A stretch of DNA of 34,917 nt from a virus: the IMG/VR virus record IMGVR_UViG_3300030333_007769, positions 1 through 34,917 of that record. One strand, given 5' to 3'. The notes under the pieces are model-generated. The model saw only the letters and a program-made list of their open reading frames with translations, was not told the DNA's origin and searched no databases. Within the stretch, counting starts at the first letter, position 1. Every line of letters starts with the position of its first letter. Both the position numbers and the translations under genes were made by a program. This document shows positions 363-21,492 of the stretch, in pieces.

Positions 363-1175
363 TTATTTTTTAGTACCGGTGACTGATGCAACATCAGCAG
401 GTAACAATCCACTATCATCTCTTATCCACCTTTTAAGTGCCCCACTTTTAACAACTTCATCTAACGCAATTTCCATCGCTTTTTTAGGTGGAATTTCTTT
501 TCTAAGATTTAATACATATACATCTAATATAAGATTAGCGATATGGGCTGCAGATTTTATTGGTCTGTTTCGTTTGAAAACATATTCACCGAACGCGGAA
601 GCAATTTGAGGTATCACTGATCGGCTATCAGACCCATTCTGACCTAAACCATCACCAGATAATGTCTTTAATTCAAACGTAGGCATTTCGTTACTAACCC
701 TTACCCCAGGAATGGATAAAATATCTATTACTTTTTGATTTAAATTAATGTCATTTTCTCTAGGATAGACGTAAGTGTCTCTAAATCCTTTAACAGCTGC
801 TAAATCGGTAATACCATCATCACCTGATTTTCTACCTGCTACATAATCACGAAATGTCTCCATTTTGTTCTTTGCATCACTAATAGCACCTTTTTTGTTA
901 AAAGGATTTAAAAGGTAATTAGCAGCTTTACCGACACCTCTAGCTGCAGTTTTTACATTTCTAGCACCAGCTTTTAAATTATCTTTGTTTGTAGCATAGT
1001 CTACAGCTTTACCTATACCTGTGTTGATTTTACTACCTAATTTACTACCTAATGTAGGTTTTTTATCTTCATCGTCATCTGGACTAGATTTTTTAGGGAG
1101 TTTAGGAGGAAGCTCTTTCTTTTTTTCATCTAAACTTAAGTAACTCTCAAAAAGATGTTTATTGTCTTTGTCCAT
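363..1175 (-). CDS. Unknown protein, possible virion or packaged protein
   Basis: This 270-residue protein is not recognised. The N-terminus has the segment LFESYLSLDE, like the short leader peptides on several other proteins in this window. It is followed by a Lys/Pro/Asp-rich stretch (residues 17-40), a Gly/Lys-rich amphipathic stretch (about 40-95), and a more ordered C-terminal half ending in a helical region. There is no signal peptide or membrane segment. An ATTAAATA late-like box lies 6 nt before the ATG, which agrees with late expression. It sits between SOD and thyX. A packaged or internal virion role is inference from the leader and the promoter. Confidence 0.75.
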   Translation of the reverse strand: MDKDNKHLFESYLSLDEKKKELPPKLPKKSSPDDDEDKKPTLGSKLGSKINTGIGKAVDYATNKDNLKAGARNVKTAARGVGKAANYLLNPFNKKGAISDAKNKMETFRDYVAGRKSGDDGITDLAAVKGFRDTYVYPRENDINLNQKVIDILSIPGVRVSNEMPTFELKTLSGDGLGQNGSDSRSVIPQIASAFGEYVFKRNRPIKSAAHIANLILDVYVLNLRKEIPPKKAMEIALDEVVKSGALKRWIRDDSGLLPADVASVTGTKK

Positions 1176-1181
1176 TGCTAA

Positions 1182-1189
1182 TATTTAAT
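1182..1189 (-). promoter_or_regulatory. Late-promoter-like box (ATTAAATA) for the 270-aa gene
   Basis: ATTAAATA on the minus strand ends 6 nt before the ATG at 1175. It matches the NTAAATA pattern seen before many genes here, as in the T4 late consensus TATAAATA. It overlaps the stop codon of the upstream SOD gene. Confidence 0.45.
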
Positions 1190-1824
1190 CAATTACTTAT
1201 GAATAAACTATTACAGAAATCCCAATTAACTACTTTAAAGAATCGTTCCATAAATTTATCCTTATAGGGGCCATCATCAAGATAGAATGCATGCTCCCAC
1301 ATATCATTACCAAATACCGGTTGTCCATGACCATGCATAAGAGGGCTATCTTGATTAGGGGTTGTCAAAACTTCTAGTTTATCTTTCTTTTTAACTAACC
1401 AAACCCAACCACTACCATAAATGGAAGTACCCTTTTCAATAAATTCTTTTTTAAAGTTGCTAAATGATCCAAATGTTGATTTAATAGCTCTTCCTAACTC
1501 AACTTTCGTTGACAAAGTAGACCCACCGGGTGTCATAAATTTCCAATACAGAGAATGGTTATAATAACCACCAGCATTGTGATTTACTTTATCGTCGTAT
1601 TTTTTAATATTTTTTATTAATTCATGAATGGGTGGTTTAGGTCTATTACCTAATGCTTCATTTAAACCTTTTGTAAAATTACGATAATGTACATCGTAAT
1701 GAAACTTCATTGTCTGTTTACTAATATGTGGTTCTAGGTCTTTAAAATCATAACCAAGCTTATCCATATAATACTTGGCTGTATTTGCTTCTACTATTAA
1801 ATCTGCGTATTTTTCAAAATTCAT
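1189..1824 (-). CDS. Fe/Mn-family superoxide dismutase with N-terminal leader
   Basis: This enzyme converts superoxide to oxygen and hydrogen peroxide. Family motifs are in order: LEPHIS (metal ligand H33), NHNAGGYYNHSLYW (ligand H90), GSGWVWLV, NQDSPL, and DMWEHAFYLDD (ligands D174 and H178). All four metal ligands are therefore present. The GG near H90 and the Gln in NQDSPL resemble Mn-type enzymes; the metal itself cannot be read from sequence. About 210 residues is normal for the family. The first residues, MNFEKYADLIVEAN, precede the usual SOD start and look like a capsid-targeting leader with an IVE|A cut site. The start overlaps the stop of the upstream gene (ATGA), so the two are co-translated. 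Confidence 0.93.
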   Translation of the reverse strand: MNFEKYADLIVEANTAKYYMDKLGYDFKDLEPHISKQTMKFHYDVHYRNFTKGLNEALGNRPKPPIHELIKNIKKYDDKVNHNAGGYYNHSLYWKFMTPGGSTLSTKVELGRAIKSTFGSFSNFKKEFIEKGTSIYGSGWVWLVKKKDKLEVLTTPNQDSPLMHGHGQPVFGNDMWEHAFYLDDGPYKDKFMERFFKVVNWDFCNSLFISN

Positions 1825-2261
1825 TTCTTTTTACCGCCTTTCATGTTAGCACACCAGTGATACATTTTACCTTTTTCACCACCAGCTTTTGCTTTTTTTC
1901 TTAAAGAGGTAACCGAACCTTTACAGCTAGCTCCTGATTTTTTTACTCTACCGGGTCGACTTTTACCTTTTTTCTTTCCGTCAATAAAATTTTCGTTTAA
2001 TTTTTTTAATTGAATTTCCGTTTTATCTAAAACGTCGCCTTTCTTATAGGTAGGCCCATCATTAAGAACTTTATATCTTACAAACTTACCAATAGTATTG
2101 TCAGGTTCTTCTATAGCAAAAACCTTTAACACTTTTCCTTTGCTTTTGAAATGTTTACATTCAGGGTTGGTATTTAAACAAATATCACCTGGCTTTAATT
2201 CATTAGCATCTAAATCAGTCTTTTCTAAGATTTCATTTATCTTGTCATTAAAGAGACTCAT
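1821..2261 (-). CDS. Small basic phage protein with DUF5872-like C-terminus
   Basis: This is a 146-residue protein of unknown function. The C-terminal third is Lys/Gly-rich and carries SRPGRVKKSGASCKG, then SLRKKAK and KGKMYHWCANMKGG, a conserved signature I recognise from marine phage proteins (DUF5872-type). Two conserved Cys and a His could bind metal. The middle (about 20-90) resembles a small beta domain. The N-terminus MSLFNDKINEILEK resembles the leader peptides of its neighbours. It precedes SOD with an ATGA overlap and has CATAAATA 5 nt before its ATG, so late expression is likely. A nucleic-acid-binding internal protein is inference. Confidence 0.75.
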   Translation of the reverse strand: MSLFNDKINEILEKTDLDANELKPGDICLNTNPECKHFKSKGKVLKVFAIEEPDNTIGKFVRYKVLNDGPTYKKGDVLDKTEIQLKKLNENFIDGKKKGKSRPGRVKKSGASCKGSVTSLRKKAKAGGEKGKMYHWCANMKGGKKK

Positions 2262-2266
2262 GCATA

Positions 2267-2274
2267 TATTTATG
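2267..2274 (-). promoter_or_regulatory. Late-promoter-like box (CATAAATA) for the DUF5872-like gene and SOD
   Basis: CATAAATA on the minus strand ends exactly 5 nt before the ATG at 2261. By T4 geometry (box at -13 to -6), the transcript would begin at the A of the ATG. Confidence 0.55.
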
Positions 2275-3247: not shown

Positions 3248-3259
3248 TAAAATATATTA

Positions 3260-4096: not shown

Positions 4097-4117
4097 ATAT
4101 AAATTTAATTTGTTATA

Positions 4118-4867: not shown

Positions 4868-4873
4868 AATGAT

Positions 4874-4879
4874 ATTATA
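4874..4879 (-). promoter_or_regulatory. TATAAT box, queE promoter
   Basis: TATAAT on the minus strand is followed by ATCATT and the ATG. A start 7 nt after the box falls on the A of the ATG, predicting a leaderless mRNA. It faces away from the phoH late-type box in the 48-nt divergent gap. Confidence 0.5.
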
Positions 4880-4902
4880 TCATATTCAACTAACTCTTCA
4901 AG

Positions 4903-4910
4903 CATAAATA
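4903..4910 (+). promoter_or_regulatory. Late-promoter-like box (CATAAATA) for phoH
   Basis: CATAAATA ends 5 nt before the phoH ATG (CTGAT spacer). This equals the spacing at 10190, 14302, 14298 and 2267. Confidence 0.55.
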
Positions 4911-6552: not shown

Positions 6553-6843
6553 TTAAGTCAATGATTTTTTATCAATAAACTTTTTAGCTACTTTATCCAT
6601 CTGAGACATTTGACGGATGGGTAACTGCATTTGTTGTGGATCCTCTTTAGCTTTTTTAGACATAATGGTCTTAAGAATATTAATTTCTTCGTTGTTTAAT
6701 TCATAAGGATTATCATTAATATAAACAGTAACTGTCTCTTCGTCACTGGCCATTACTGCGGGTTCACTATATTCGTTAATTATCTTTTCACCCGTGTACT
6801 TTTCTGTTTGAGAATCTAATAGCTTATTAGTTATATTATGCAT
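6553..6843 (-). CDS. Unknown 96-aa protein
   Basis: Not recognised. It is acidic in the first half and contains TVTVYINDNPYELNNEEI, which looks like a short beta-strand pair followed by a helix, then a Gln/Met-rich segment and a Lys-rich C-terminus. The start overlaps the previous gene by 8 nt, so it is probably translated from the same transcript. Confidence 0.65.
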   Translation of the reverse strand: MHNITNKLLDSQTEKYTGEKIINEYSEPAVMASDEETVTVYINDNPYELNNEEINILKTIMSKKAKEDPQQMQLPIRQMSQMDKVAKKFIDKKSLT

Positions 6844-7270
6844 TTTTTAGAACTTTCTTGTAAACATTTAAAATATCTTTATCTGAAAAACCGCCTTGTT
6901 TCAAATATAATTCTATATCATCAATATCGTCGGTATTCTTAATTTGTTCCATGACTTTGTTATCTAATTTTTCAGATAGTTTTTTTACAATAAAAGATTT
7001 AAACATTTTTATAGCTTTTGGTTTATTAGGTGTTATTACCGGTTGATTAACATCATATATACCAGGCATCGAACCGCCAGGCATTAACATTTTTAATACA
7101 GAAGGTAATCCCCCACCGCAAGCTTCATTAGTAAGTTCATGCAAAACAAACCCCTCATAACTCTCGCTTTCTTCAAAGCCTTTATTGAGAGTAGGGTCTA
7201 CTTTGAATCGAATATACTTCATACCCTTGCCTTTTAAACAGCCGGTTAATATATCGTCAAAGTTTTTCAT
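6836..7270 (-). CDS. Unknown 144-aa protein
   Basis: Not recognised. The N-terminus MKNFDDILTGCLKGKG is followed by a mixed region with EGFVLHELTNEACGGG and a Gly/Met/Pro-rich loop (MLMPGGSMPG), then a helical C-terminal half. It has no signal or membrane segment. A late-like ATTAAATA box ends 7 nt before its ATG. The downstream gene overlaps its end by 8 nt. A structural or packaged role is possible but weakly supported. Confidence 0.65.
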   Translation of the reverse strand: MKNFDDILTGCLKGKGMKYIRFKVDPTLNKGFEESESYEGFVLHELTNEACGGGLPSVLKMLMPGGSMPGIYDVNQPVITPNKPKAIKMFKSFIVKKLSEKLDNKVMEQIKNTDDIDDIELYLKQGGFSDKDILNVYKKVLKNA

Positions 7271-7285: not shown

Positions 7286-8345
7286 AATTAATGACATCTA
7301 AAATTGTAGTGTAGAAAGGTTTCTTAGATTCTCCGTGACATACTGGCTGATCTTTCATTCCATGATTCCAATTATCAAACCACAATAAGTTATAATCATA
7401 TAATTGAGCTATAATACTATAAAAAGGCTCTTCAGTAAAAGGTGCTATTTCATGATCATCGGTAAATGCATTAAACAACTTCATATACATAGGGAATATA
7501 ACATCATCCAATTCATCAAAAGAACCTCCAAAAAATGTACCTACGGTCCAATTAGGATAACCAGCTTGGGGAGTACCCTCACCGTCAATACACTGTTGAA
7601 TATTAAATTTCATCTTATCAGGTGTTAATTCGCAAGGATATGTAATACCAAGTTTCCAACCTAACAAGTCATATAAAATTTTACTAGTTTTATTTCCGTA
7701 TTCATCCCAATCAAATTCTGCTAAACGGTCGTTATGTTGTGGTTGGGTTACAAAAAACCATTTTTTGTCGGTCATTATACGTTTTATACCTTCTGTAAAT
7801 TTAGGAGTAAAAATATTATTTTCATTTTCTGGATAAAAATGTGAATCAGGGTATTTTTCATTTAATTCTTGCGGGTAAACATATTCAGCTCCACCGTAAC
7901 ATAACGGTATTTTACACCACTCCGTTACACCAGCATCCATCCAAAAAACTTTATCACATCCCCATTCATTATCACGTGCTTGCTGACACCATTTTAATTT
8001 CCAATGACATAAAAGTTCGTTTCTTGGAGCATAAATTACATCTCTTTCAACACCTTTATCGTCTTCACGTTTATACCATATAAAATTATTTTTATATTCT
8101 AATATTTCATATGATCTTGGCCATTCAAACAAATCACAGCCTATGATTTTATATTCTTTAAAAAACGGTTTTACCATTTCATCTAAAAACTCGACCATAT
8201 GAGGCCAGCAATATAAATGCATTGGCATATCAAGTTTTGATAAATTTTTTAAAGAACCTACATACAGCCCTTCGTCATTATCTTTTCCACCGGCAACCCA
8301 ATCGGAATTGGCGTTATAAACACATGTAACTAAAATTGGTTTCAT
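7281..8345 (-). CDS. HtrL/YibB-like protein, putative glycosyltransferase (copy 1)
   Basis: This 354-residue protein opens with PILVTCVYNA, then YVGSLKNLSKLDMPMHLYC (28-46), NELLCHWKLKW (109-119) and VFWMDAGVTEW (133-143). An Asp in a (W/F)xDxG motif with this layout fits the HtrL/YibB family, which resembles GT-A glycosyltransferases. HFYPENENNIFTP follows and is nearly repeated in the gene at 25921-26937, its paralogue. It overlaps the upstream sulfotransferase gene by 4 nt (ATGA), which suggests joint work on a surface glycan. The acceptor and donor are unknown. Confidence 0.75.
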   Translation of the reverse strand: MKPILVTCVYNANSDWVAGGKDNDEGLYVGSLKNLSKLDMPMHLYCWPHMVEFLDEMVKPFFKEYKIIGCDLFEWPRSYEILEYKNNFIWYKREDDKGVERDVIYAPRNELLCHWKLKWCQQARDNEWGCDKVFWMDAGVTEWCKIPLCYGGAEYVYPQELNEKYPDSHFYPENENNIFTPKFTEGIKRIMTDKKWFFVTQPQHNDRLAEFDWDEYGNKTSKILYDLLGWKLGITYPCELTPDKMKFNIQQCIDGEGTPQAGYPNWTVGTFFGGSFDELDDVIFPMYMKLFNAFTDDHEIAPFTEEPFYSIIAQLYDYNLLWFDNWNHGMKDQPVCHGESKKPFYTTILDVINY

Positions 8346-8965
8346 AATTTATCGTAATGTAAAAATTCAAAGTCTTCGCTAAAGTAATCATTTAAGTAAT
8401 CCAACGTTTCTCTTTTGATCTCATTAATATGTAATGCTGAACCTTTGTTCGATTTGTTAATATGTGGTAAATCAGGAGAGAACGTAAAATCGTTTGCCAT
8501 TAAAGCAAACTCTTCTGCTAAATTTTCGAACTTTAATATATAATCATATTTTATATTATTATTAAAGTAACGTTTTTGTGGTAAATTGTGGTCTCGAGGT
8601 AATAAAGGGAACTGATGCCAAAACCAGTCGAAGCCGTCCGGGTCAAACTCTTTATGGGAACCTGCTTCATGCATGAAATAAGAAGATATCGCTCTTTCAT
8701 ATGGGTTTCTTATGACTGTAAATTTTTTACACTTATTATAATACTTAGGATATTTAGATTCAATTATATCTGGTGTATAATGTTGAGGAGCGTATATTTC
8801 TTCTTTACCTTCAATTTTATATTCACCATGTTCATAACAGACAACATTACTTTCTTTAATTAACGTTTTTTCCTTATCAATTATACCAAATTTCTGTTCA
8901 ATAGACGTTCCTCCTGTTTTTGGTATGTGTACAAAAAGCAAATCGTGCTCAGTAAAAAATGGCAT
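8342..8965 (-). CDS. Sulfotransferase-family protein
   Basis: The protein shows the two PAPS-binding motifs of the sulfotransferase 2 type: FVHIPKTGGTSIE (phosphosulfate loop, about 11-23) and TVIRNPYERAISSYF (3'-phosphate binding, about 83-97). I choose the ATG at 8965, giving 207 residues. A TTG 27 nt upstream also opens the frame, but the ATG leaves about 12 residues before HIPK, which is normal for the family, and a TTTAAATA box sits 5 nt before it. It heads an operon with the HtrL-like gene, so sulfation of a phage-made or host glycan is the likely role (inference). Confidence 0.85.
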   Translation of the reverse strand: MPFFTEHDLLFVHIPKTGGTSIEQKFGIIDKEKTLIKESNVVCYEHGEYKIEGKEEIYAPQHYTPDIIESKYPKYYNKCKKFTVIRNPYERAISSYFMHEAGSHKEFDPDGFDWFWHQFPLLPRDHNLPQKRYFNNNIKYDYILKFENLAEEFALMANDFTFSPDLPHINKSNKGSALHINEIKRETLDYLNDYFSEDFEFLHYDKL

Positions 8966-8970
8966 AAAGG

Positions 8971-8978
8971 TATTTAAA
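8971..8978 (-). promoter_or_regulatory. Late-promoter-like box (TTTAAATA) for the sulfotransferase gene
   Basis: TTTAAATA on the minus strand ends exactly 5 nt before the ATG at 8965, which helps decide the start. A TATAAT box further upstream, near 8984-8989, is a second possible promoter. Confidence 0.45.
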
Positions 8979-9016
8979 CAGTTGAAGTTCAAAGTAAAGA
9001 TTATATTATAAAGTCG

Positions 9017-10060
9017 ATGACTGATAAAAATACAAGTTACGAGTGGTTAGGTGAGGATGATGAACTCACCGGCGAAAAGGATGTTATTGCTCAAGAAATA
9101 ATGGGTGATGAATTCAGCAAAGGTTATTGCCCTCCTATTAGAGTTTATGATCGATCAGTAAAAGCTGATAAGAAGTATATTTCTTCTTTACCTGATCTAC
9201 AAAACGGACCATCAAGCTTAATTCAAGGAGCTGCAGTTCCTATTCAACAAGTAGGTATTCATAATTTTAAATTACCTCTCAATTATAAAAAGAGAAATGG
9301 TAAAACTATTGAGTTAGAAACCAGTGTTACTGGTAGTGTTAGCTTAGAGGCTCATAAAAAGGGTATTAATATGTCTCGTATTATGAGAAGTTTTTATGAT
9401 CATAAAGACGAGGTGTTTAGTATTGGTAAAATTAAAGACGTGTTAGAAACATACAGAAAGAATCTGAAATGTTTTGACTCTCGTATTATGTTAAAGATTT
9501 CTTATCCTATAAAACAAAAAAGTTTACGAAGTGGTTTAGAAGGTTATCAATATTATGATGTAGTCTTTGAAGGTGACTTAACTAAAGATGGTAAATTCAA
9601 GAAATATATTCATTTTGATTTTGTTTATTCATCTGCTTGTCCATGTAGTTTCGAGCTAAGTGAGCATGCTGAAAAATATCGTAATAGAGCAACAGTACCT
9701 CACAGTCAACGAAGTGTAGCACGTGTTAGTGTTAAGTTCGATGAAATGCTATGGGTAGAAGATCTTCAAGAATTATGTCTTCAAGCTCTTCAAACTGAAA
9801 CACAAGTTATGGTAAAGAGAGAAGATGAGCAAGCATTTGCAGAGAAGAATGGTTCTTATCTTAAGTTTGTAGAAGATGCTGTTCGACTTCTTTATGATAA
9901 GCTTACTAATGAATCACGTATTACAGACTTTAAGATCGTAGCATCTCATAACGAAAGTCTTCACAGCCATAATGCAGTATCAGTTATTGTAAAAGGTGTC
10001 GAAGGTGGCTTTACTGCAGGTGTACCTAGAGATGTATTCGAATCGACTGGATTAAGATAA
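9017..10060 (+). CDS. folE2: GTP cyclohydrolase FolE2 (type IB)
   Basis: FolE2 converts GTP to 7,8-dihydroneopterin triphosphate, the precursor used by QueD. Diagnostic features are SLPDLQNG (57-64), VSLEAHKKGINMSR (108-121), SACPCS (C208 and C210), PHSQRS (229-233) and ESLHSHNA (313-320), all typical of the GCYH-IB family rather than FolE. It is about 40 residues longer than common bacterial forms, with an acidic N-terminal extension (1-40). It is transcribed away from the sulfotransferase gene and separate from queD and queE. TATTAT lies 7 nt before the ATG. Confidence 0.93.
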   Translation: MTDKNTSYEWLGEDDELTGEKDVIAQEIMGDEFSKGYCPPIRVYDRSVKADKKYISSLPDLQNGPSSLIQGAAVPIQQVGIHNFKLPLNYKKRNGKTIELETSVTGSVSLEAHKKGINMSRIMRSFYDHKDEVFSIGKIKDVLETYRKNLKCFDSRIMLKISYPIKQKSLRSGLEGYQYYDVVFEGDLTKDGKFKKYIHFDFVYSSACPCSFELSEHAEKYRNRATVPHSQRSVARVSVKFDEMLWVEDLQELCLQALQTETQVMVKREDEQAFAEKNGSYLKFVEDAVRLLYDKLTNESRITDFKIVASHNESLHSHNAVSVIVKGVEGGFTAGVPRDVFESTGLR

Positions 10061-10079
10061 CTCTGAGTTAAATAGAATT

Positions 10080-10182
10080 ATGCCCAGATCAACACTGTTA
10101 AAGTCTCTGCAGTCATCATCATCTTGCGTTTAACGCATGTTGCATACCCCTTCGCAAGAAGGACAGACGTTGATCTGGGTAT
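10080..10182 (+). ncRNA. Candidate structured RNA between folE2 and the next gene
   Basis: A 14-bp outer helix pairs 10080-10093 with 10169-10182 (one G-U). Inside are hairpins 10094-10097/10110-10113, TGCGT/ACGCA at 10125-10129/10133-10137, and CCTTC-GCAA-GAAGG at 10149-10162, a stem closed by a GNRA tetraloop. GTCT (10103-10106), in the first hairpin loop, can pair with AGAC (10165-10168), giving a possible pseudoknot. There is no U-run, so it is not a simple terminator, and no tRNA T-loop or anticodon arm is seen. The class is unknown. The GNRA loop favours the plus strand. Confidence 0.5.
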
Positions 10183-10189
10183 TACCTTT

Positions 10190-10197
10190 TATAAATA
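10190..10197 (+). promoter_or_regulatory. Perfect T4-type late promoter box TATAAATA
   Basis: TATAAATA ends 5 nt before the GTG at 10203. T4 geometry would place +1 on the G of the GTG, a leaderless start. It follows the structured RNA by 7 nt. Confidence 0.65.
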
Positions 10198-10202
10198 ACT
10201 GC

Positions 10203-10778
10203 GTGGCTAAAAATAAAAAAGATGACAACAGTGATGAGTTGGGTTTTGAAAAAGCTATTTTAAAAGTTTGTAGTTTAAGGGAAAAAAATTTATTAGGGCC
10301 TGCTACTAAAGCAGCTGATGACCCAGAGACCGGTATTGTTATCAAACAAAAACCGGCTTTTTTTGTAATTAAAGATTGCGCAACAATTGCTAAAAGATAC
10401 ATGTTTATCATGTGTTATGGTTCCTTAACTGATCCAATTGGACAATTAAAAGGTAAGGTAAGTTTAGAAGACGTTGAAAATTTTGTTGCAAGAAGTAGAA
10501 ACAAATCAAATTATGAAACCCGTCAATTACTAAATTTAATTTTTGCAGATATTAACAGTTATATTCCTGGTCTAAGACAAGAAGGTGCAGATGAACTGGA
10601 TATTAACTTTGATACAATCGATGAAGAAAACGTATACGGTGATTACGAAGACTTAGGGAACGAAAGAATCAAAGAGATGGAAAAACAACAGGAAATACAA
10701 AAACATAAAATTGATCTTAATAATGATCAAGCTGTTGTTGATAAACTTGCTGAAGTGTTTGTGTTTGATGAAGATTAA
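10203..10778 (+). CDS. Unknown 191-aa protein, GTG start
   Basis: Not recognised. The frame is open upstream to 10137, but that stretch is the structured RNA; GTG at 10203 follows the late box by 5 nt and starts a Lys/Asp-rich N-terminus (VAKNKKDDNSDE). The body contains KPAFFVIKDCATIAKRYMF, a helical centre and a long acidic, Gln-rich C-terminal helix ending FVFDED. There is no signal peptide. The stop TAA overlaps the stop of the facing retropepsin gene in TTAA. Late expression is likely; a structural or regulatory role cannot be decided. Confidence 0.75.
   Translation: MAKNKKDDNSDELGFEKAILKVCSLREKNLLGPATKAADDPETGIVIKQKPAFFVIKDCATIAKRYMFIMCYGSLTDPIGQLKGKVSLEDVENFVARSRNKSNYETRQLLNLIFADINSYIPGLRQEGADELDINFDTIDEENVYGDYEDLGNERIKEMEKQQEIQKHKIDLNNDQAVVDKLAEVFVFDED
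10701..10730 (-). terminator. Weak candidate terminator for the retropepsin operon
   Basis: A 6-bp inverted repeat, TTGATC (10711-10716) and GATCAA (10725-10730), is followed on the minus strand by TTTTATGTTT. It is AT-rich and lies in the facing coding sequence, so this is a low-confidence call. Confidence 0.3.
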
Positions 10779-11212
10779 ACTTCTTCTTTATCTACATCAA
10801 TAAATTTATCAATCTTAGAAACAAAATCTTTACCTACTAAAATAGGGTATTCATTTTCAGATCGATCAGCTATAGAAAACGGAACATCTTTGTAGGTTTT
10901 ACCATCAAATACTATATCAAATAACACTACTGGTCTTTCTTCTTTATTACCAGAACCAATATGTATAACGATGGTGTCAACTACTTTCTTTTTTAGTCTT
11001 TTATCACCCACTGTATGTACAATTATATTATCACCCCTTTTACCCACCACGTTACCGTGTAATACATTATACGCACCATTACCGGAATCGACTTTGGCTC
11101 TAATTTCACCAAGGTCTTTTAAAGTCATTGGCTCTACTAAACCAATGACGTCGTTATCTGTAATTTCATTTAAGAAATAACTACGATATATGTTGTTAAA
11201 TGTTTTACTCAT
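10775..11212 (-). CDS. Retropepsin-like aspartic protease (RimB/PF05618 type)
   Basis: The domain has GEIRAKVDSGNGAYNVLHG (35-53), where DSG is the retropepsin active-site triad, and DRSENEYPILVGKDF (116-130), the C-terminal signature of the 'ATP-dependent zinc protease' family now known as retropepsin-like. At about 145 residues it fits one domain that would dimerise. I choose ATG 11212 rather than a start 45 nt upstream: it overlaps the upstream stop by 8 nt and gives the leader MSKTFNNIYRSYFLNE, like other proteins here. It is cotranscribed with the histone-like gene. A role in virion maturation is speculation. Confidence 0.8.
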   Translation of the reverse strand: MSKTFNNIYRSYFLNEITDNDVIGLVEPMTLKDLGEIRAKVDSGNGAYNVLHGNVVGKRGDNIIVHTVGDKRLKKKVVDTIVIHIGSGNKEERPVVLFDIVFDGKTYKDVPFSIADRSENEYPILVGKDFVSKIDKFIDVDKEEV

Positions 11213-13532: not shown

Positions 13533-13820
13533 TCACGGATCGCGAGGTTCTGTAGGTCTACGTGATTCTAACGGGGATCTTTTAGGTGTACCGTTAACGG
13601 GGAGTGGCCTACTCGGGGGTGTCGGTCTAGATATTTTAGGTGGTGAAGATTCTCTTCGTTTTTCTCTTTTTCTATAGTGATGGTGATGATGGTCATCATA
13701 AACATAAACTGTTCTAGTGTGATGATGATGAATATGACCACCACAACAACCGTCAGACTCTACTACTTCCCAACCGGTACAACCGGTTAACAATAAAAGT
13801 AATAAAGTAATTTTTTTCAT
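13533..13820 (-). CDS. His-rich, Pro-rich lipoprotein
   Basis: This 95-residue protein has a lipoprotein signal: MKKI, a run of six Leu and the lipobox LTGC (Cys14 lipidated). Two His clusters, HIHHHH (29-34) and HHHHH (44-48), give ten His in twenty residues, with a CC pair before them. A basic stretch and a Pro/Arg-rich tail follow. It probably sits in the outer membrane and could bind metal. The size and Pro-rich tail recall Rz1-type spanins, and some phage lipoproteins block superinfection; neither is proven. It overlaps the upstream small gene by 4 nt. Confidence 0.75.
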   Translation of the reverse strand: MKKITLLLLLLTGCTGWEVVESDGCCGGHIHHHHTRTVYVYDDHHHHHYRKREKRRESSPPKISRPTPPSRPLPVNGTPKRSPLESRRPTEPRDP

Positions 13821-13987
13821 TTAATTTTTTTAGCTTGATCTTTCATCTGCTTACGATATTTTGGGTCATTTTTCCATTTACTAGAAACTTTACCCTTTTT
13901 CTTAGCTTTATTAATATTATGCCAAAGACCTTTACTTGCTTCGTTAACAGATAACAACTCTTCAATTTTTTTATTAAAACTATTCAT
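13817..13987 (-). CDS. Small 56-aa basic phage protein with leader-like N-terminus
   Basis: A short open frame runs from ATG 13987 to TGA 13817. It reads MNSFNKKIEELLSVNEAS, then KGLWHNINKAKKKGK and a Lys-rich tail. GLWxNIxxxRxxGxK-type peptides are recurrent in marine phage small proteins. The N-terminal FNKKIEELLSVNE|A resembles the capsid-targeting-like leaders nearby. It lies 2 nt after the upstream gene and overlaps the lipoprotein start by ATGA, so it is part of that operon. A DNA-binding internal protein is possible. Confidence 0.7.
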   Translation of the reverse strand: MNSFNKKIEELLSVNEASKGLWHNINKAKKKGKVSSKWKNDPKYRKQMKDQAKKIK

Positions 13988-13989
13988 AA

Positions 13990-14292
13990 TTACCAATTTT
14001 TACAACTTAAGTATCTTGCTGTTCCGGGTTTTGCTGAAGAACATTTGTGTCTTGCTCTAAAACTCTTACGTCTTTTAGGGTTACTCTTCTTAATACGACG
14101 TTTTGGATCTCCGTAATGTATCCTTTTGTATCCCTTACCGGAAGGATTTTTAACACATTTCATATACTTCTTACTTTTTAAATAAGAACTCGCTTGTTTA
14201 GTAGTCTTAGTACATCTTGAACCTTTTTTCTCCATAATTTCAGATAATTCAAAATCATCCTTAATAAAATCAAATAATGTATCAAAATCCAT
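13990..14292 (-). CDS. Basic phage protein, late expressed, 100 aa
   Basis: The N-terminus MDFDTLFDFIKDDFELSE is acidic and amphipathic; the rest is strongly basic with HYGDPKRRIKKSNPKRRKSF (59-78) and RHKCSSAKPGTARYLSCKNW at the C-terminus. The GDPxxxIKKSNPxRRKSFRARH...C block is a signature I recognise from T4-like marine phage proteins of unknown function. An open frame extends upstream to 14448, but that runs across the divergent gene. I choose ATG 14292, which sits 5 nt after a perfect late box. Co-operonic with the 56-aa gene and the lipoprotein. Confidence 0.8.
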   Translation of the reverse strand: MDFDTLFDFIKDDFELSEIMEKKGSRCTKTTKQASSYLKSKKYMKCVKNPSGKGYKRIHYGDPKRRIKKSNPKRRKSFRARHKCSSAKPGTARYLSCKNW

Positions 14293-14314: not shown

Positions 14315-14773
14315 ATGAACAAAGACGAAAAAAGTTTGTCAAAATTATATGAGGCAACTTTATCACCTTTAAATGGTGTTGGGATGGGACCCGGTGCAGA
14401 AGATTCAGCTGGCGGGTTAGGTAGTCCAACAATGACAAAAATTAACATCGAAGATGAAGAAAAAAATTGCGATGCCGGTAGTGATGTTGATATGGCTAAA
14501 GCTGAGTTATATAAGTTAGCTGATTATGCGCCCAAGCTACAAGAAATGGTTGATAGTTATGACGATTTAGAAGGATGGGTACAAGCTAAAATTACAAAAG
14601 CAAGTGATTATGTGTCGGACGTTTACCATTATTTAAAATATGAACATTCAGACAAACAACCTGAAATTGCAGACGAGGTTGACGTAGACGTCGACGTTGT
14701 TGAAGTTGATGATGCACCTCCAGGTGAAGTTGACCCAGGTGATGCTATAAAAAGACTAATGGGTGGAATTTAA
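14315..14773 (+). CDS. Acidic phage protein with YVSDVYHYLKY-type domain
   Basis: The 152-residue protein begins with SLSKLYEATLSP, a leader-like segment with LYE|A. The centre carries ELYKLADYAPKLQEMV and EGWVQAKITKASDYVSDVYHY (about 92-111), a conserved block I know from T4-like marine phage proteins of unknown role. The C-terminus is Asp/Val-rich (DVDVDVVEVDD). It is transcribed divergently from the basic 100-aa protein, and the acidic/basic pair could interact (inference). Its stop overlaps the facing stop in TTAA, and a terminator lies 32 nt beyond. Confidence 0.8.
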   Translation: MNKDEKSLSKLYEATLSPLNGVGMGPGAEDSAGGLGSPTMTKINIEDEEKNCDAGSDVDMAKAELYKLADYAPKLQEMVDSYDDLEGWVQAKITKASDYVSDVYHYLKYEHSDKQPEIADEVDVDVDVVEVDDAPPGEVDPGDAIKRLMGGI

Positions 14774-15384
14774 GAAGGTAAATTACTTAAAGATTTAAAG
14801 ACATAATCTACGAGGCTATCATTGTCTCGTAGATTTTCTGGTATATAAGGCATCAAATTTTCTTTAGATAGGTTATCAATTACATCTCTAAACCTACTTG
14901 CACTAACTGCACCACCTTCATCACCAATTACATCAGCAACTTCGACGTCAACAGTTACACCTTCGGGTATATGTTTGGATAATCCATTATAACGTGCTTT
15001 ATCATCACCTTTACCACCAACACCCACAATTACATGATCACCGGGTTGGGTATTTTCTCTAATATAGTCGTAAACTTCAGTAACAGCATTACGTGCCGTG
15101 GTAACATCAACGTTACGTAATGTACCAATTTCTTCAATATACCTTCTTAAGATGTCTGCAGCTGTATCTGCTGGTATATACTTGCCACCCGGGGTATAAC
15201 GTCTAGATTTTTCGGAAGGTTCAGTAACGATAACATTCATAAAACTGTCTGGACCAGCTTTACGTTTAAAATTTTCAATAAGTTGTAAATGACCTAAATG
15301 AGGTGGTTTAAATGATCCAGGAAACAAGACAATAGTGCGTTTATTATTATTTTCTTTAAGAAAGAATTTTTTAAACGTTATCAT
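14770..15384 (-). CDS. Cytidylyltransferase-like nucleotidyltransferase (HxGH family) with leader
   Basis: The protein begins MITFKKFFLKEN, a leader-like peptide, then TIVLFPGSFKPPHLGHLQLI with the HxGH motif, and later VSASRFR, matching the (I/V)SAxxxR motif. This is the nucleotidylyltransferase alpha/beta phosphodiesterase superfamily (NMN adenylyltransferase, CTP:glycerol-phosphate and others); the substrate is not determined. I choose ATG 15384, 6 nt after GATAAATA, over a TTG 6 nt upstream. The start lies inside the end of the glycosyltransferase-like gene, and its stop overlaps the facing stop. Confidence 0.85.
   Translation of the reverse strand: MITFKKFFLKENNNKRTIVLFPGSFKPPHLGHLQLIENFKRKAGPDSFMNVIVTEPSEKSRRYTPGGKYIPADTAADILRRYIEEIGTLRNVDVTTARNAVTEVYDYIRENTQPGDHVIVGVGGKGDDKARYNGLSKHIPEGVTVDVEVADVIGDEGGAVSASRFRDVIDNLSKENLMPYIPENLRDNDSLVDYVFKSLSNLPS
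14805..14837 (+). terminator. Rho-independent terminator of the acidic-protein gene, inside the facing gene
   Basis: AATCTACGAG (14805-14814) pairs perfectly with CTCGTAGATT (14826-14835), loop of 11 nt, followed by TTTT (14834-14837). It lies 32 nt past the stop of the plus-strand gene. Confidence 0.65.
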
Positions 15385-16660: not shown

Positions 16661-16664
16661 AAAG

Positions 16665-17978
16665 TTACTTAGCGTTTTTACCCCTAAATCCAGTACCACC
16701 TGGATCGTTCCAACTTCTTGGGTTACCTATATAGTTCGAAAAACTCATACCTTTACCGTTATTGGGCATTGGTGCAGATTGATCATCTTCATCCTCTTCA
16801 TTTTCAGGTCTGTTACTTGCTAACATACCACCCATTCCCGTGACAATAAAATCACCTGTAATTTTTAGTGAGTTAGGATTACCAAATTCATCTTTACCAT
16901 AATCAGTGTCAGTAATTACAATACCTTCATGTTCATCAGCATGGCCGTAATCATCGGTAGTGTAACTTCTTAAAATTTCTTGACCCAACTGTCTGACTAG
17001 ATGATATGTTACAGCACCATCTACAGCAGTTTGAATATCTTCTTCTTCGTAAATTTCGTTTAAAGGTTTATTTTCTTCTACAGAATTTAAAACATTTAAA
17101 TAAGTTTCTTTACTAACTGCGCCTCTTAACCTACCATCTTTCGTTTTAACTCTTTCAGTTTTAGGAATAATGCTATTAGTAGCCCATTCTTGCAACGGTT
17201 GAGTTACTGTTTCATTAGCACTATATTTAACTGAAAAAGGTTCCTGTAAGGAAGCTGTTAAATTAGGGGTAGCTTTTTGAGTTACATATATACCAGACAA
17301 AACTTCAAAGCCATATTTTTGTGCAACCATGTTAACTTTATCTCTAAATGATTGCATTGCTTTTTCGTCATAGTTAACAGGTCTAGAAGTTTCTTTTTTA
17401 TCGGGTTTAGGTTTTAACCCGGGTCTTGTTACATTACCCTTTCTATCTTTTTTTTCTACAAATTGATTTATACCATGAAATGCAATTATCTTTTTACCTT
17501 TATAATCTATTACATTTTCTCTTCCGTCAATATATTCTGTATTAATAAATTTAGTAGGGTCACTCCATAAACCTAATTTTTGAAGTTCATTTACAGTACT
17601 AGGAATAGATTGGTTCATTATTTCTAAAATAGTTTTACCTTTAGCTCTCATTCCATGACCTTCAGGAAATCTTTCACCTAATGTGTCGATTCTGATACCA
17701 TTTACATCAATAATTTTTTGAGACCCTCTATCTAAAGCAAATTCTCGCTTATAACTATTAGCATCTGACTTAACAAGTTTAAGACTTAAATTTACACCAT
17801 CAAGCTTAATGGTAGATTTACCTCTGTTAAGTTTTTCAACTGCACTGTACATAACATTGATAATGTCATGAATATTTTTAACGTCAGGTAAGTCAAAAGG
17901 GTGCATCATGTGACCAGCAGCACCACCTTCATTTACCACTGTTAAATACTTCTCAAAAATTAATGACTGTTCATTCAT
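16665..17978 (-). CDS. Nucleic-acid-ligase-like nucleotidyltransferase with leader peptide
   Basis: The 437-residue protein carries the ordered motifs of the ATP-dependent DNA/RNA ligase superfamily: STIKLDGVNLSLKL with motif I KxDG (K58), TEYIDG (147-152, motif III-like), IIAFHG, EGIV (351-354, motif IV) and LKITG (371-375, motif V-like). It begins IFEKYLTVVNEGGAAGHMMHPF, a leader-like peptide with a VNE|G site. It overlaps the upstream nuclease-like gene by 4 nt (ATGA). Ligase family members also include capping enzymes, so the exact substrate is open. Membership of the superfamily is likely. Confidence 0.7.
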   Translation of the reverse strand: MNEQSLIFEKYLTVVNEGGAAGHMMHPFDLPDVKNIHDIINVMYSAVEKLNRGKSTIKLDGVNLSLKLVKSDANSYKREFALDRGSQKIIDVNGIRIDTLGERFPEGHGMRAKGKTILEIMNQSIPSTVNELQKLGLWSDPTKFINTEYIDGRENVIDYKGKKIIAFHGINQFVEKKDRKGNVTRPGLKPKPDKKETSRPVNYDEKAMQSFRDKVNMVAQKYGFEVLSGIYVTQKATPNLTASLQEPFSVKYSANETVTQPLQEWATNSIIPKTERVKTKDGRLRGAVSKETYLNVLNSVEENKPLNEIYEEEDIQTAVDGAVTYHLVRQLGQEILRSYTTDDYGHADEHEGIVITDTDYGKDEFGNPNSLKITGDFIVTGMGGMLASNRPENEEDEDDQSAPMPNNGKGMSFSNYIGNPRSWNDPGGTGFRGKNAK

Positions 17979-19480
17979 ACGTTTAATTTAATTGCTACCC
18001 CTTTCGATCTGGAGTCAATACTAAGACCAATAGCTAATTTGTTTTCATCAACTAATCTTTTAACTACATTAAATGTGTAAACAAATCTGTCTTTGACTGA
18101 ATCGCCTTGAGGCATAAGTGGAAACCCGTTCATTGTATTATCGTTCATGAATAAAATAATTTTAAATCCTTCATGTTCTTTATACATTGAAATTTGTAAT
18201 GCACCGACAATAGCTCTTAAAAGATTATCATCTCTTCTTCTAGCTAATGATCTCATTGTGTCTAAATCTAAAATTTGATCAAGACCTTCTTTAAATTGTT
18301 TTTTATCAAATCTAGCTTCACTTGCTAATTCTAAAAACCCATCAATAATTTCTTCTTTTGATAATCCCCATTCATTTAAAAAGAAGTTTTTAATTGCAGG
18401 GTCTGTTGTACTTGATTCACTATCTTTACTTGCACCAACTACTTTATTTTCGTTTGCGTTAATGTAATCTCTTAATGAGTTAAAATATTTTGATACTCTG
18501 TTAATAACGGCATTGTAAGATCTTTTATCAATAATTTTAGGAAGAACTCTTACTAAATCATTTTTAAGCTGAAATTCTAAATCATTAGCATCTTTAAGTT
18601 TAACTTCACTATCATTATCAATTTCTTCAACAAAATCTAAAACTTCTCTTATACCATCTGAAGTACCTTCTTCGAATTTTTTGTCTACTGATTGTATTAC
18701 ATTGTTTAAGTAAGAAGATAATTCATTTCTATTTTTGGCAAGGTGTTTATATTTTTCTCTAATTTCACTTCCAGTAAATACATCATGACCTTTTAGATCT
18801 TTAAGCATTTTAGGTAACGTTTTTAACGCTGCAAATGCATTACCTGTTTTACCAGGACGACCACTTAAACCTTTTAACTCTACATCACCAAATCCTGGAA
18901 ATAATAAATCACCAACATCACCTTTAACAGCATTTGAAAACATTGTTATTGCAATTTCGCCTTTACCAACACCAACATTATTAAGTGTGGGATTAATTAA
19001 ACAAATATCTTGAACTGTTTCATGAGGACTAGAAAAAACAGTTTTTACTGCATCTTCAAGTGGGTCAATTATACTAAATGTTGTTTCGTTTTCAGCAGCA
19101 TTAATCATAGTTTCCAAAAACAGTGTTTTGGTTTTCTTTTGAGATGCAAATTCTTTTAACTCTTTATTATTAACATCAGAAGTATTTTCTACTGCTTCAT
19201 TAACAGGACCTAATATTTTTTGAATATATTCTTTTTCGTTGGTACCTTTCCAATCACATTTTTCTAAAATATCGTTTAGAATTTTTACTGTACCCTCACT
19301 ACTGTTTAATATTTTTCTTTTTAATTTAGCAGCTGTTTCATCGTCAATAGCACCAACTACTTTAGGTTGTTGATCACTTTCAGCTTTAAAAAACACCTGA
19401 ACTCGTTCGCGTAAAGGTGCAACTTTTTTACCAAGTGTATTTTCAGTGTATATATCGTGTAGTGAGGTATATTTGCTCAT
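17975..19480 (-). CDS. PD-(D/E)XK-like nuclease candidate
   Basis: The 501-residue protein contains VGVGKGEIAI (169-178) and GFGDVELKGLSGRPG (196-210). GKGE followed by D199-x-E201-x-K203 fits the PD-(D/E)XK nuclease fold, with E175 as a further acidic residue. The rest is mainly helical and unmatched. The N-terminus MSKYTSLHDIYTEN is leader-like. It lies 1 nt after the upstream gene and overlaps the ligase-like gene. A virion-packaged nuclease acting on host or rival DNA, or a recombination factor, is inference. The fold call rests on motif spacing. Confidence 0.65.
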   Translation of the reverse strand: MSKYTSLHDIYTENTLGKKVAPLRERVQVFFKAESDQQPKVVGAIDDETAAKLKRKILNSSEGTVKILNDILEKCDWKGTNEKEYIQKILGPVNEAVENTSDVNNKELKEFASQKKTKTLFLETMINAAENETTFSIIDPLEDAVKTVFSSPHETVQDICLINPTLNNVGVGKGEIAITMFSNAVKGDVGDLLFPGFGDVELKGLSGRPGKTGNAFAALKTLPKMLKDLKGHDVFTGSEIREKYKHLAKNRNELSSYLNNVIQSVDKKFEEGTSDGIREVLDFVEEIDNDSEVKLKDANDLEFQLKNDLVRVLPKIIDKRSYNAVINRVSKYFNSLRDYINANENKVVGASKDSESSTTDPAIKNFFLNEWGLSKEEIIDGFLELASEARFDKKQFKEGLDQILDLDTMRSLARRRDDNLLRAIVGALQISMYKEHEGFKIILFMNDNTMNGFPLMPQGDSVKDRFVYTFNVVKRLVDENKLAIGLSIDSRSKGVAIKLNV

Positions 19481-19481
19481 A

Positions 19482-19826
19482 TTAATATCCTATATCTGGG
19501 TCGTCTGAATAAGTGCCAATAAATCTTTTCAAATCTGAAAGTTTTTGACGACCATTCTTTTCATTAATTTCATCATCAGCAATATCATCGGGAATATCAT
19601 CAGGATTAGTATTAATAAATAAAGCTTTTTTAACTAAACGTATTAATTCAAGTTCACCTTCAGAAGTAAGTTTTTGAACTTCAGGTTCAGGTGCTGGTTC
19701 TTGAACCTGCATATCAACTTGAGACACTTCAACACCTTCTGGCGGTGGTTCAGATAACCCCGCAGTGTTTTCTAAAAGAGAACGTTTATTTTTAATTAAT
19801 TTGTAAAATTTGCTAGATATTTTCAT
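19482..19826 (-). CDS. Unknown 114-aa protein
   Basis: Not recognised. It begins MKISSKFYKLIKNKRSLLEN, a basic leader with an LLE|N site, followed by a Pro/Glu-rich disordered stretch (PEPPEG...PAPEPE) and an acidic C-terminal half with two predicted helices. The start overlaps the preceding stop (ATGA) and the next gene begins 1 nt after its stop. It may be a small internal virion protein. Confidence 0.65.
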   Translation of the reverse strand: MKISSKFYKLIKNKRSLLENTAGLSEPPPEGVEVSQVDMQVQEPAPEPEVQKLTSEGELELIRLVKKALFINTNPDDIPDDIADDEINEKNGRQKLSDLKRFIGTYSDDPDIGY

Positions 19827-20248
19827 AATTTTTCCTTTACTTGTCTGATAATATCATCAGTTGTGTCTTTATATTTTTTCAAACCAGCTTCTACTGCTCC
19901 TTGTCTTCTTTTCATTTCATGAGCAGCATTAGGGTTTCTTCTAGCTTCTCTTTCAATAGTGTCATCTAAATCAGCTTTAGCATTTTGTTGATCGTCAAAT
20001 TCTTCACCATCTTCTGCAGGTAATTTATTACCGTTTTGTATTAGATCGTCTATTGAAAAATAAACTCTTTGAACTGCTTTAAATAATTCAGGGTTTTCAT
20101 CAACTTGACTTGCTGCATACTGCTGAATACCTCTATCGTTAACAATATTGTGAACTAATTGAAGAATATCCTTACCAACGTCTAAAGATTCTTCATCTTG
20201 TGAAACGTAGTTAGAAAAACCTTCTTTAATAGCTTGTTCGAACTTCAT
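19823..20248 (-). CDS. Unknown 141-aa helical protein
   Basis: Not recognised. The N-terminus MKFEQAIKEGFSNY is leader-like with IKE|G. The body is rich in Asp, Glu, Gln and Lys and predicted to be mostly helical, with ERRARR/EREARRNPNAAHEM-type basic runs near the C-terminus. A GATAAATA late-like box lies 6 nt before the ATG, so it probably starts a late transcript covering the nuclease, ligase and downstream genes. Confidence 0.65.
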   Translation of the reverse strand: MKFEQAIKEGFSNYVSQDEESLDVGKDILQLVHNIVNDRGIQQYAASQVDENPELFKAVQRVYFSIDDLIQNGNKLPAEDGEEFDDQQNAKADLDDTIEREARRNPNAAHEMKRRQGAVEAGLKKYKDTTDDIIRQVKEKL

Positions 20249-20254
20249 ATAATA

Positions 20255-20262
20255 TATTTATC
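20255..20262 (-). promoter_or_regulatory. Late-promoter-like box (GATAAATA) for the nuclease-ligase operon
   Basis: GATAAATA on the minus strand lies 6 nt before ATG 20248 and overlaps the stop of the upstream gene. Confidence 0.5.
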
Positions 20263-20818
20263 TAAATGCAATATGTTTAGTTTTAATATCATTAAAGTAA
20301 TCTTTACTGAGAAAATTTAAACCATATAGTTTAGCATATTTCTTTACTTTTTCGAAAGTGTAATTTTCTACTTTAAACTTATTGATAGTGTTGACTATAC
20401 GATAAAGCGTGCCTTTTGCTCTTCCATCGTCAATTGTTAATAAATGACTAAAGAAATCCAAGCTTTTACTTGAAATAACTACTTTTATTGGTAGTACTGA
20501 TCTAATTTTAAGAAGAACCTTTGTTAAAAGTTTAAGATAAACAACTTCGTCAATATATTTTAACATTTCACTATCATTAAATTGTGTATTATTAAAATAG
20601 ACTATTATTTTATTGTTTGATTCGTAATTGTTTATAAAATCTACGGTTTCTTTTATGATATAATGTGTAATTAATCGCTTACTATCCGATCTTAACTCAG
20701 GTAAACTATCAATTAAATGTAAATCGTGAAGCTCATTCATCAGAGACTTTTCGAAACTTAAATGAATTGTTTGAAAGTCAATTAACGTAACGTTATACTG
20801 AGGTAATTCCAAGCTCAC
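20258..20818 (-). CDS. Unknown 186-aa protein, GTG start
   Basis: Not recognised. The frame opens at GTG 20818; the next Met is residue 27, so the true start could be internal. It is rich in Ile, Leu and Asn, with alternating strands and helices (VTLIDFQTIHLSF; KIIVYFNNTQF; KVVISSKSLDFFSHLL), suggesting an alpha/beta fold. No nuclease or kinase motif is evident, and no leader-like N-terminus is seen. It lies between the GIY-YIG gene and the 141-aa gene. Confidence 0.6.
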   Translation of the reverse strand: MSLELPQYNVTLIDFQTIHLSFEKSLMNELHDLHLIDSLPELRSDSKRLITHYIIKETVDFINNYESNNKIIVYFNNTQFNDSEMLKYIDEVVYLKLLTKVLLKIRSVLPIKVVISSKSLDFFSHLLTIDDGRAKGTLYRIVNTINKFKVENYTFEKVKKYAKLYGLNFLSKDYFNDIKTKHIAFR

Positions 20819-20848
20819 AAGGAAATTTTAACTGAACTGCAAACTAAT

Positions 20849-21268
20849 TCAACTCTTTTTTATTTTGCCGAGTCTTAAATTAATAATCCCGTTATAAAAT
20901 TTATCTTCATGTAATAGAACATCATTATCAAACTGTAATTTAGCTTCATAATATGCAAGTTCTGATTTAGAATTACAAAATCTGACAATTTCGAAAATAA
21001 ATTTATCTTTTCCGTACTCAATTAAATCATGATTAACTTTATCTGAAGAAGAAGTGTAAGTTTTCCAATCTGTTTCTTTTATAACATGTCTACGGCGTGA
21101 TTTACCTTTAAGAGGAGGAAGTTTAGCTACTTTCTGTGCCTGTTTTTTGCCGATATATTTCTTTCCGGTAACAGTATTTGTTATAACGTAGATGAAACCG
21201 AAGAAGTCCTCAGGTATATCATCTCTTTTCCCATTATAAGTCCAATGCCCTAAATTATCAACTGTCAT
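20849..21268 (-). CDS. GIY-YIG family endonuclease
   Basis: The 139-residue protein has the GIY-YIG signature with FIYVITNTVTG (25-35) and KKYIGKKQ (36-43), then DWKTYTSSSDKVNHDLIEYG and EIVRFCNSKSELAYYEAKLQF, with the conserved Glu of the last part acting as metal ligand. This resembles homing endonucleases and phage Seg-type enzymes. No intron is seen, so a free-standing enzyme is likely. Its start overlaps the upstream basic gene by 4 nt. It could act on rival phage DNA or on junctions. Confidence 0.75.
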   Translation of the reverse strand: MTVDNLGHWTYNGKRDDIPEDFFGFIYVITNTVTGKKYIGKKQAQKVAKLPPLKGKSRRRHVIKETDWKTYTSSSDKVNHDLIEYGKDKFIFEIVRFCNSKSELAYYEAKLQFDNDVLLHEDKFYNGIINLRLGKIKKS

Positions 21269-21492
21269 TTTTTACTTTTCTTTTTTGTGCTCTTCTTTTT
21301 CTTTTTCTTTTTTGAAGAGCTCATATTACGTCTTTGTACCCCGCCTAATACTTTTGGCATTCTGCTGTCTCCAGGAGCGTAATAATCACCAGAAAATTGA
21401 CTTGTTGTCCAACTACCTAATGCACCACCTGATCCAGCGACGTTACCGTCTTCATCAAGTAATTTCATAAATAGCTTTCGAAACATTGACAT
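21265..21492 (-). CDS. Small Lys-rich protein with leader-like N-terminus
   Basis: This 75-residue protein begins MSMFRKLFMKLLDEDG, a leader-like peptide, then a Gly/Ser-rich stretch with SGDYYAPGDSRMPK and LGGVQRRN, and ends in a Lys/Ser run (SSSKKKKKKKSTKKK). ATG 21492 is chosen, 6 nt after CTTAAATA; a second ATG at 21495 precedes it directly. A basic DNA-binding internal protein is likely. It heads the long minus-strand operon. Confidence 0.7.
   Translation of the reverse strand: MSMFRKLFMKLLDEDGNVAGSGGALGSWTTSQFSGDYYAPGDSRMPKVLGGVQRRNMSSSKKKKKKKSTKKKSKK

Follow-up and report, generated by a model that had tools for sequence, protein, structure and literature searches.

The virus record IMGVR_UViG_3300030333_007769 of IMG/VR, analysed here over its entire length of 34,917 bases (hereafter the window), is a fragment of a T4-like phage in which a series of unrelated enzymes and small proteins begin with a short leader ending in a hydrophobic-x-glutamate site. 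We interpret these leaders, with a probability of roughly 0.85, as capsid-targeting sequences (CTS) of the T4 type, by which cargo enzymes would be drawn into the prohead, cut by gp21 and ejected with the DNA. This reading had been put forward for eleven proteins in an initial annotation, and is supported directly by the leaders themselves, which are conserved and agree with the T4 residue pattern, by the presence of gp21 in relatives and by the occurrence of leader-bearing enzymes in cyanophage virions, as well as by a core-protein gene that carries a leader. In T4, the gp21-cut tags of IPI, IPII, IPIII and Alt comprise about ten N-terminal residues with aromatic or hydrophobic side chains at positions 4 and 7 and an (L/I)xE end; targeting depends on residues 4 and 7 and processing on residues 8 and 10, with the gp21 cut falling after L/I-x-E (PMC9026906). 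Eight of the eleven proteins keep the leader in their relatives (a slash marks the predicted cut):

1189 to 1824, minus strand: Fe/Mn superoxide dismutase (SOD) with leader (Pfam PF02777, 7e-32; PF00081, 7e-19)
1789 to 1824, minus strand: its leader, MNFEKYADLIVE/A; LIVE/A, LILE/A, ELLE/A and QLLE/A in four genomes
10775 to 11212, minus strand: retropepsin-like protease (PF05618, Pfam 2e-7)
11165 to 11212, minus strand: its leader, MSKTFNNIYRSYFLNE/I; FLNE, IVQE, IINE and IVNE in close relatives
14315 to 14353, plus strand: leader of the protein at 14315 to 14773, MNKDEKSLSKLYE/A; in relatives TELYE/A, LLSE/A, IVNE, VINE and MPVKNYKDF[VI]SE/E
14770 to 15384, minus strand: nucleotidyltransferase (NTase), cytidylyltransferase/NMNAT-like (PF01467, 2e-6, from residue 22; phrog_3041, 6e-6; phrog_395, 1e-3)
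15352 to 15384, minus strand: its leader, MITFKKFFLKE/N; in relatives FLKE/Q, MKTFKQFFLGE/Q, RTFKRYFLNE/E, MKLFSQYFYNE/Q, MKNFKQYFE/Q, MLTYKLFLE/Q and MKTFRQFLIE/S
16665 to 17978, minus strand: RNA-ligase-like nucleotidyltransferase (KxDG..EGxV..K, by alignment; weak fold match of a homologue, L018, to T4 Rnl1)
17928 to 17978, minus strand: its leader, MNEQSLIFEKYLTVVNE/GGAAGHMMHPFD
19770 to 19826, minus strand: leader of the protein at 19482 to 19826, MKISSKFYKLIKNKRSLLE/N; in relatives VLSE/A, VLSE/L, VLNE/Q, VLQE/Q, VLKE/Q and EINE/Q
20222 to 20248, minus strand: leader of the protein at 19823 to 20248, MKFEQAIKE/G; MKF(D/E)xA(I/L)xE/G in all relatives
21451 to 21495, minus strand: leader of the protein at 21265 to 21495, MMSMFRKLFMKLLDE/D; beyond it come a look-alike of the gp23 N-arm and a Lys-rich tail

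All eleven N-termini named in the initial annotation are present in the sequence letter for letter, those of the retropepsin, the NTase and the protein at 13817 beginning at ATG codons located 6 to 45 nt within the longest TTG-initiated open reading frames (ORFs); for the retropepsin and the NTase the ATG start is backed by relatives. The gp43 polymerase of the window is 84-96% identical to that of close uncultured relatives, 52-54% to that of an intermediate group and about 31% to that of marine T4-likes (such as P-HM2 and single-cell viruses); the phage collection searched contained no relatives at the DNA level, and tblastn with the nuclease-like and ligase-like proteins found none. Upon alignment with their homologues, the N-termini keep the leader while the remainder diverges, down to 25% identity in the body of the protein. 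A hydrophobic-x-E leader is retained in 4/4 diverged SOD homologues, where the body of the leader varies (MSFEKYADLILE, MNYEYKIQELLE, MSYESKVYQLLE) and LxE/ANT is constant; SOD homologues of other viral contigs (L078-L080, L082) have no leader. The NTase leader occurs in every relative, including MLTFKDYFLKE/Q, and in intermediate and close relatives it nearly copies MKTYQEFIAE/A of T4, MKTFRQFLIE/S coming close to it. The retropepsin leader is kept in all homologues, taking the forms MVTFKQFFYE/Q, MVKFKQYFEE and MRRFGKLFIE/Q in intermediate relatives, and diverged homologues of the proteins at 14315, 19482, 19823 and 21265 (all but one) likewise preserve hydrophobic-x-E. The ligase-like family has homologues on about 60 marine contigs: the mature part starts with GGAAGHMMHPFD, preceded by leaders such as MKIYTNFTEFLNE.., MNTLQTYKEFLLE.. 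and MKLLSFDSFINE.., the residue before GG is E in 61/62 and P3 is hydrophobic in 62/62, and among 35 distinct leaders 31 match the pattern [YF]xx-h-h-x-E (h, hydrophobic), vs a mean of 1.3 and a maximum of 8 in 2000 within-leader shuffles.

The conserved leaders follow the T4 rule in both of its parts. The aromatic or hydrophobic residues of T4 positions 4 and 7 recur in the 31 ligase-like leaders and in NTase, retropepsin and 21265 homologues of intermediate relatives, the window copies being looser, and the (L/I)xE end site is kept in the eight families and in a further protein upstream of SOD (1821), with V, F or Y also accepted at P3. Among distant marine T4-likes, the T4-like pattern was found at 33/486 ORF N-termini vs 7.1 expected (z 10.5), among intermediate relatives at 14/324 vs 4.6, and within 400 kb of LR756500 at 30/458 vs 7.9; in the pooled distant and intermediate genomes, 43 matches fall in residues 1-10 vs about 5 in each later stretch of ten. 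That the leader is an added piece is indicated by the Pfam domains of the SOD and the NTase, which start only at residues 17 (Sod_Fe_N) and 22, and by a 2H-phosphoesterase/Acb1-like protein of the distant marine record G008 (MKHIKDYLTWLFE/S), whose alignment with proteins of Maribacter phages begins only at residue 19.

A connection to the prohead is seen in the relatives. gp21 was found in 17/39 distant and 4/14 closer records, all of them fragments; each of the eight named phage records tested has it too, one of them below the family cut-off. The gp23 of intermediate relatives carries CVNE/ANVAGG or CVEE/GNTAG at the position of the T4 LTE/A site, and gp21 and gp22 of two intermediate relatives begin with LLVE/T and ILKE/A. 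In G008, the gene between the portal and a gp21-gp22 fusion starts with MKTYIKTFEQFIFE/N (KTFEQFIFE/N), like many unrelated proteins of the same record, others of which start with MKxVKLFEQFVNE/S and similar sequences. As a separate observation, gp21 lies within ORFs of 467-791 aa in G008 (64213-66063) and other distant marine records; the G008 ORF combines gp21 with a gp22-like scaffold in which YLAE-type sites recur.

Published virion proteomics offers an independent check, in which presence in virions is seen for homologues and analogues of the window proteins only. The S-CREM2 report lists 52 phage proteins of the virion with coordinates (PMC10665884), which we translated and compared at their N-termini with the remaining ORFs of the genome (OR473000). 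On that listing, a leader is found on 6/28 detected non-structural proteins vs 2/145 undetected ORFs (Fisher p = 2.4e-4), and on 4/4 enzymes classed by the authors as regulatory or nucleic-acid proteins. The six are the SAM hydrolase (MKDFDSFLEE), an APH-like kinase (MKRFDAFLTE/E), the cytidylyltransferase (MKNFSSFLTE/A), a Cas9-like nuclease (..LRFASFMAE/A), ORF13 (MKDLHSFLTE/Q) and ORF136 (MQTFSMFFSE/D); in the nuclease (7704-10313), reported from virions in the same listing, the motif stands about 20 residues in. The S-CREM2 cytidylyltransferase belongs to the family of the window NTase, as do the virion NMNAT of S-SCSM1, which starts with MKSFLQFLKE/A (PMC9602691), and gp184 of Syn9 (MKKFSAFLSE/A), all sharing phrog_395/3041; S-SM1 virions contain a cytidylyltransferase as well (PMC3037559), and those of S-SCSM1 a D-Ala-D-Ala carboxypeptidase (PMC9602691). 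The accessible text of the S-CREM2 and S-SCSM1 papers makes no mention of leaders and does not contain the term 'capsid targeting', and a search for literature linking 'capsid targeting sequence' with cyanophage proteomics, which left most subscription papers outside its reach, returned none beyond T4 and giant-phage reviews.

A first alternative is chance: in AT-rich phage proteins, short amphipathic N-termini that end in hydrophobic-x-E would be frequent, and the eleven examples were picked by eye. The loose signal [LIV]xE within residues 4-22 occurs in 20/46 window ORFs where internal stretches would predict 13.2 (z = 2.5), a mild enrichment that we rejected as sufficient evidence, and the strict T4-like pattern at 3/42 N-termini vs 0.45 expected. 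A scoring matrix built from T4, distant marine phages and three intermediate relatives, with the window clade excluded, gives the eleven named proteins higher scores than the remaining 36 ORFs (Mann-Whitney p = 5e-5, a comparison that is not blind, as the names had been chosen by eye from a similar pattern), places the leader of 19823 at the top of the window and puts 10/47 ORFs below p = 0.05 vs 2.4 expected. As a group the eleven leaders exceed chance; singly, most do not. Three of the eleven lack support from relatives, and here the set first proposed did not hold in full:

1125 to 1175, minus strand: possible leader of the protein at 363 to 1175, MDKDNKHLFESYLSLDE/K, seen in the window only
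13940 to 13987, minus strand: possible leader of the protein at 13817 to 13996, MNSFNKKIEELLSVNE/A; the sole homologue has a different leader
17975 to 19480, minus strand: nuclease-like protein (GxGxGE..GD..ExKG, by alignment)
19442 to 19480, minus strand: its possible leader, MSKYTSLHDIYTE/N, weak; E in close relatives only

For the other eight, the conservation across relatives, the shuffling result for the ligase-like leaders and the enrichment in every marine genome group and among detected virion proteins largely refute chance, which overall we consider a most improbable explanation; the leaders of 363, 13817 and 17975 remain unproven. The leaders might instead mark core or structural parts that are targeted to the prohead and stay in the head instead of being injected, their catalysis mattering during assembly or never. 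A core-protein gene and the cargo do share the leader, and some T4 core proteins are degraded inside the head (PMC9026906); however, ejection is known for T4 Alt and the IP proteins, which bear such leaders (PMC9026906), and the SOD, the NTase and an M15 peptidase are ordinary enzymes without scaffold-like features, so that we regard this as unlikely, if the most serious of the alternatives. Less likely still in our estimation, and only a little more credible than chance, is an N-terminal helix that serves as a docking tag for a replisome, a membrane or a multi-enzyme complex, with virion detection due to carry-over of abundant proteins. Shared docking is conceivable where NTase, ligase-like and nuclease-like domains adjoin and are fused elsewhere, and the authors of the S-CREM2 and S-SCSM1 studies allow for carry-over or contaminant enzymes (PMC10665884, PMC9602691), but the tag obeys the T4 targeting and cleavage rule on unrelated proteins, is also present on the gene that occupies the gp67/68 position, and is seldom seen on undetected S-CREM2 proteins.

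Several observations, besides this carry-over and the mild enrichment within the window, weigh against capsid targeting. The window leaders are mostly more degenerate than those of T4, and P3 is at times occupied by F or Y, which the L/I-x-E rule does not cover. No homologue of the protein at 363 was found among relatives, that at 13817 is known from two genomes with differing leaders, and the site of the nuclease-like protein reads YTE or YSE in close relatives and A, N or Q in four others. The window contig, a fragment, has no head genes, and what is known of gp21 and its specificity comes solely from relatives whose DNA polymerase is at most 52-54% identical. In S-CREM2, 22/28 virion-detected non-structural proteins have no leader, and the matrix score fails to separate all such proteins from undetected ORFs (p 0.14), which only the regex subset does. 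Finally, no cleaved N-terminus was seen.

We favour a model of T4-type targeting in which, upon late expression, the short amphipathic tag would draw each protein into the prohead core of a gp22-type scaffold, a gp21-type protease would cut after hydrophobic-x-E to free the mature enzyme within the head, and this enzyme would leave the head together with the DNA when the next cell is infected; for the window phage, we infer cleavage at E, packaging and injection alike. The predicted cargo would comprise the Fe/Mn SOD, the NMNAT-like and RNA-ligase-like nucleotidyltransferases, the retropepsin-like protease, several small proteins and possibly the nuclease-like protein, most plausibly acting prior to phage gene expression, be it in the removal of oxidants, in the upkeep of NAD or RNA, or in repair. 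The identity of the SOD, judged from both Pfam domains, is secure, and virion packaging of a phage SOD would be, to our knowledge, unreported so far.

The closest known counterpart is the T4 tag itself, Alt being a packaged enzyme (PMC9026906); the window tag differs in being carried by many unrelated enzymes (SOD, NTase, RNA-ligase-like, retropepsin), in its more variable spacing and in allowing F, Y or V at P3. The virion enzymes of S-SM1, S-CREM2 and S-SCSM1 (cytidylyltransferase/NMNAT, SAM hydrolase, APH-like kinase, Cas9-like nuclease) resemble the window set in NTase families and in leaders seen in sequence, and the window adds a SOD, a retropepsin and a separate ligase-like protein. DarB of P1, an ejected anti-restriction protein, is likewise taken into the head by an N-terminal signal, although this is more than nine residues long and the Dar proteins have no common sequence (PMC9024508). 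In SPN3US/phiKZ-type phages, which form a different group, N-terminal propeptides of packaged head and ejection proteins are removed by the prohead protease, but these are far longer than T4 tags, several exceeding 100 residues (PMC5694885).

The adjacent NTase, ligase-like and nuclease-like genes of the window merit separate consideration. By family profile, the protein at 14770 is NMNAT/cytidylyltransferase-like. Pfam and PHROGs did not recognise the ligase-like protein, and searching PDB sequences with its alignment yielded no credible match; its motifs are TIKLDGVN, HEGIVIT and KITG, with K58, D60 and G61 unchanged across 25 sequences. As the structure predicted for the window protein was poor, the homologue L018 was modelled instead; its top Foldseek matches are almost all nucleic-acid ligases, including T4 Rnl1, all weak (E >= 0.01), and its residues 1-31, leader included, are disordered. 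L025, L041, L060 and Microcystis phage Mel-JY01 each join an NTase to a ligase-like domain, in Mel-JY01 across the border NNNIIAE/GGLGGHM, and PHROG family 455 covers another ligase-like protein together with an NTase. Because the same domains are fused in other phages, the arrangement suggests that the products of the three window genes may work together. In G032 (20582-23410; L121:582-3410), a single 946-aa ORF appears, by inspection, to contain ligase-like, NTase and nuclease-like domains, the latter, similar to that of the window, closing the protein. Its interdomain sites read YDEFITE/A, a perfect T4-like sequence, and VINE/G, so that it is possibly a phage polyprotein cut by the prohead protease; a search for diverged relatives of this fusion found only G032 itself and an identical copy.

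Two proteins that the initial annotation had missed would, by their sequences, join the leader-bearing set:

2223 to 2261, minus strand: candidate leader of the basic protein upstream of SOD (1821), MSLFNDKINEILE/K; E[IL]LE in 5/5 relatives
7241 to 7270, minus strand: degenerate leader of the protein at 6836 to 7270, MKNFDDILTG; in relatives MKDFDTILTE/C and MKSFDIILAE/C, overall MK(D/N/S)FDxILxE/C, with E replaced by G in the window

Signal peptides were set aside, as the leaders have no hydrophobic core; the unlisted proteins at 11465 and 13533 resemble secreted proteins instead. Gene overlap as a cause of conserved N-termini was also considered and set aside. A T4-late-promoter-like sequence, NATAAATA, stands 13-16 nt 5' of the starts of 1821, 4916, 12868, 14315 and 19823, with 14 such sites across the window; among leader-bearers it lies 13-14 nt ahead of 1821 (13 nt), 14315 and 19823, TATAAATA being located 13 nt 5' of the 14315 start.

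The protein at 21265-21495 shows a further peculiarity, shared with its homologues in G041, G044 and G045 and with S-CREM2 (OR473000, 128342-129235): following a leader-like start, the beginning of mature gp23 (NVAG..G..DxYAPGDxRxPK) is copied, and a Lys-rich tail ensues. The alignment of these look-alikes to gp23 beats 1000/1000 shuffles in all six comparisons, and S-CREM2 ORF160, which has the same design as 21265, is present in the virion. Such proteins could possibly be capsid-arm mimics that anchor to the shell.

Leaders of the same kind were encountered elsewhere. At least about 15 mostly unrelated proteins of LR756500, a 462-kb uncultured phage (L243-L262), start with MKYIxxYEEFLxE. The Acb1/2H-phosphoesterase-like protein of G008 (155292-155858; L113:15292-15858; Pfam Acb1 2.5e-6), with its capsid-targeting-like leader, is a possible preloaded anti-CBASS enzyme, and a VanY/M15 peptidase of G041 (8262-8885) carries the leader MISFKKFVKE/A. 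In T4 itself, gene 61.1 (L101:18966-19130) starts with MKTFKEFIKE/D, a strong capsid-targeting-like leader, and we know of no report of its product in virions. On a bolder view, to which we give even odds, one CTS tag would be a general and mobile delivery signal across marine T4-like and huge phages, loading dozens of unrelated effectors into each virion (LR756500 has at least about 15 leader-bearing proteins), among them defence-related Acb1-like 2H enzymes, Cas9-like nucleases and SAM hydrolases, as well as NAD/RNA enzymes and SOD, with some cargo made as a polyprotein (such as that of G032, ..YDEFITE/A..) and split by the prohead protease in the head.

If capsid targeting holds for the window phage and its relatives, the leader would be a sequence-only predictor of phage proteins preloaded into the virion and delivered at infection, and would explain the recurrence of NMNAT-like enzymes in cyanophage virion proteomes. 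It would also supply a testable list of proteins with exact predicted N-termini, and in marine T4-like phages a large number of uncharacterised proteins and so-called auxiliary metabolic genes would become candidate injected effectors.

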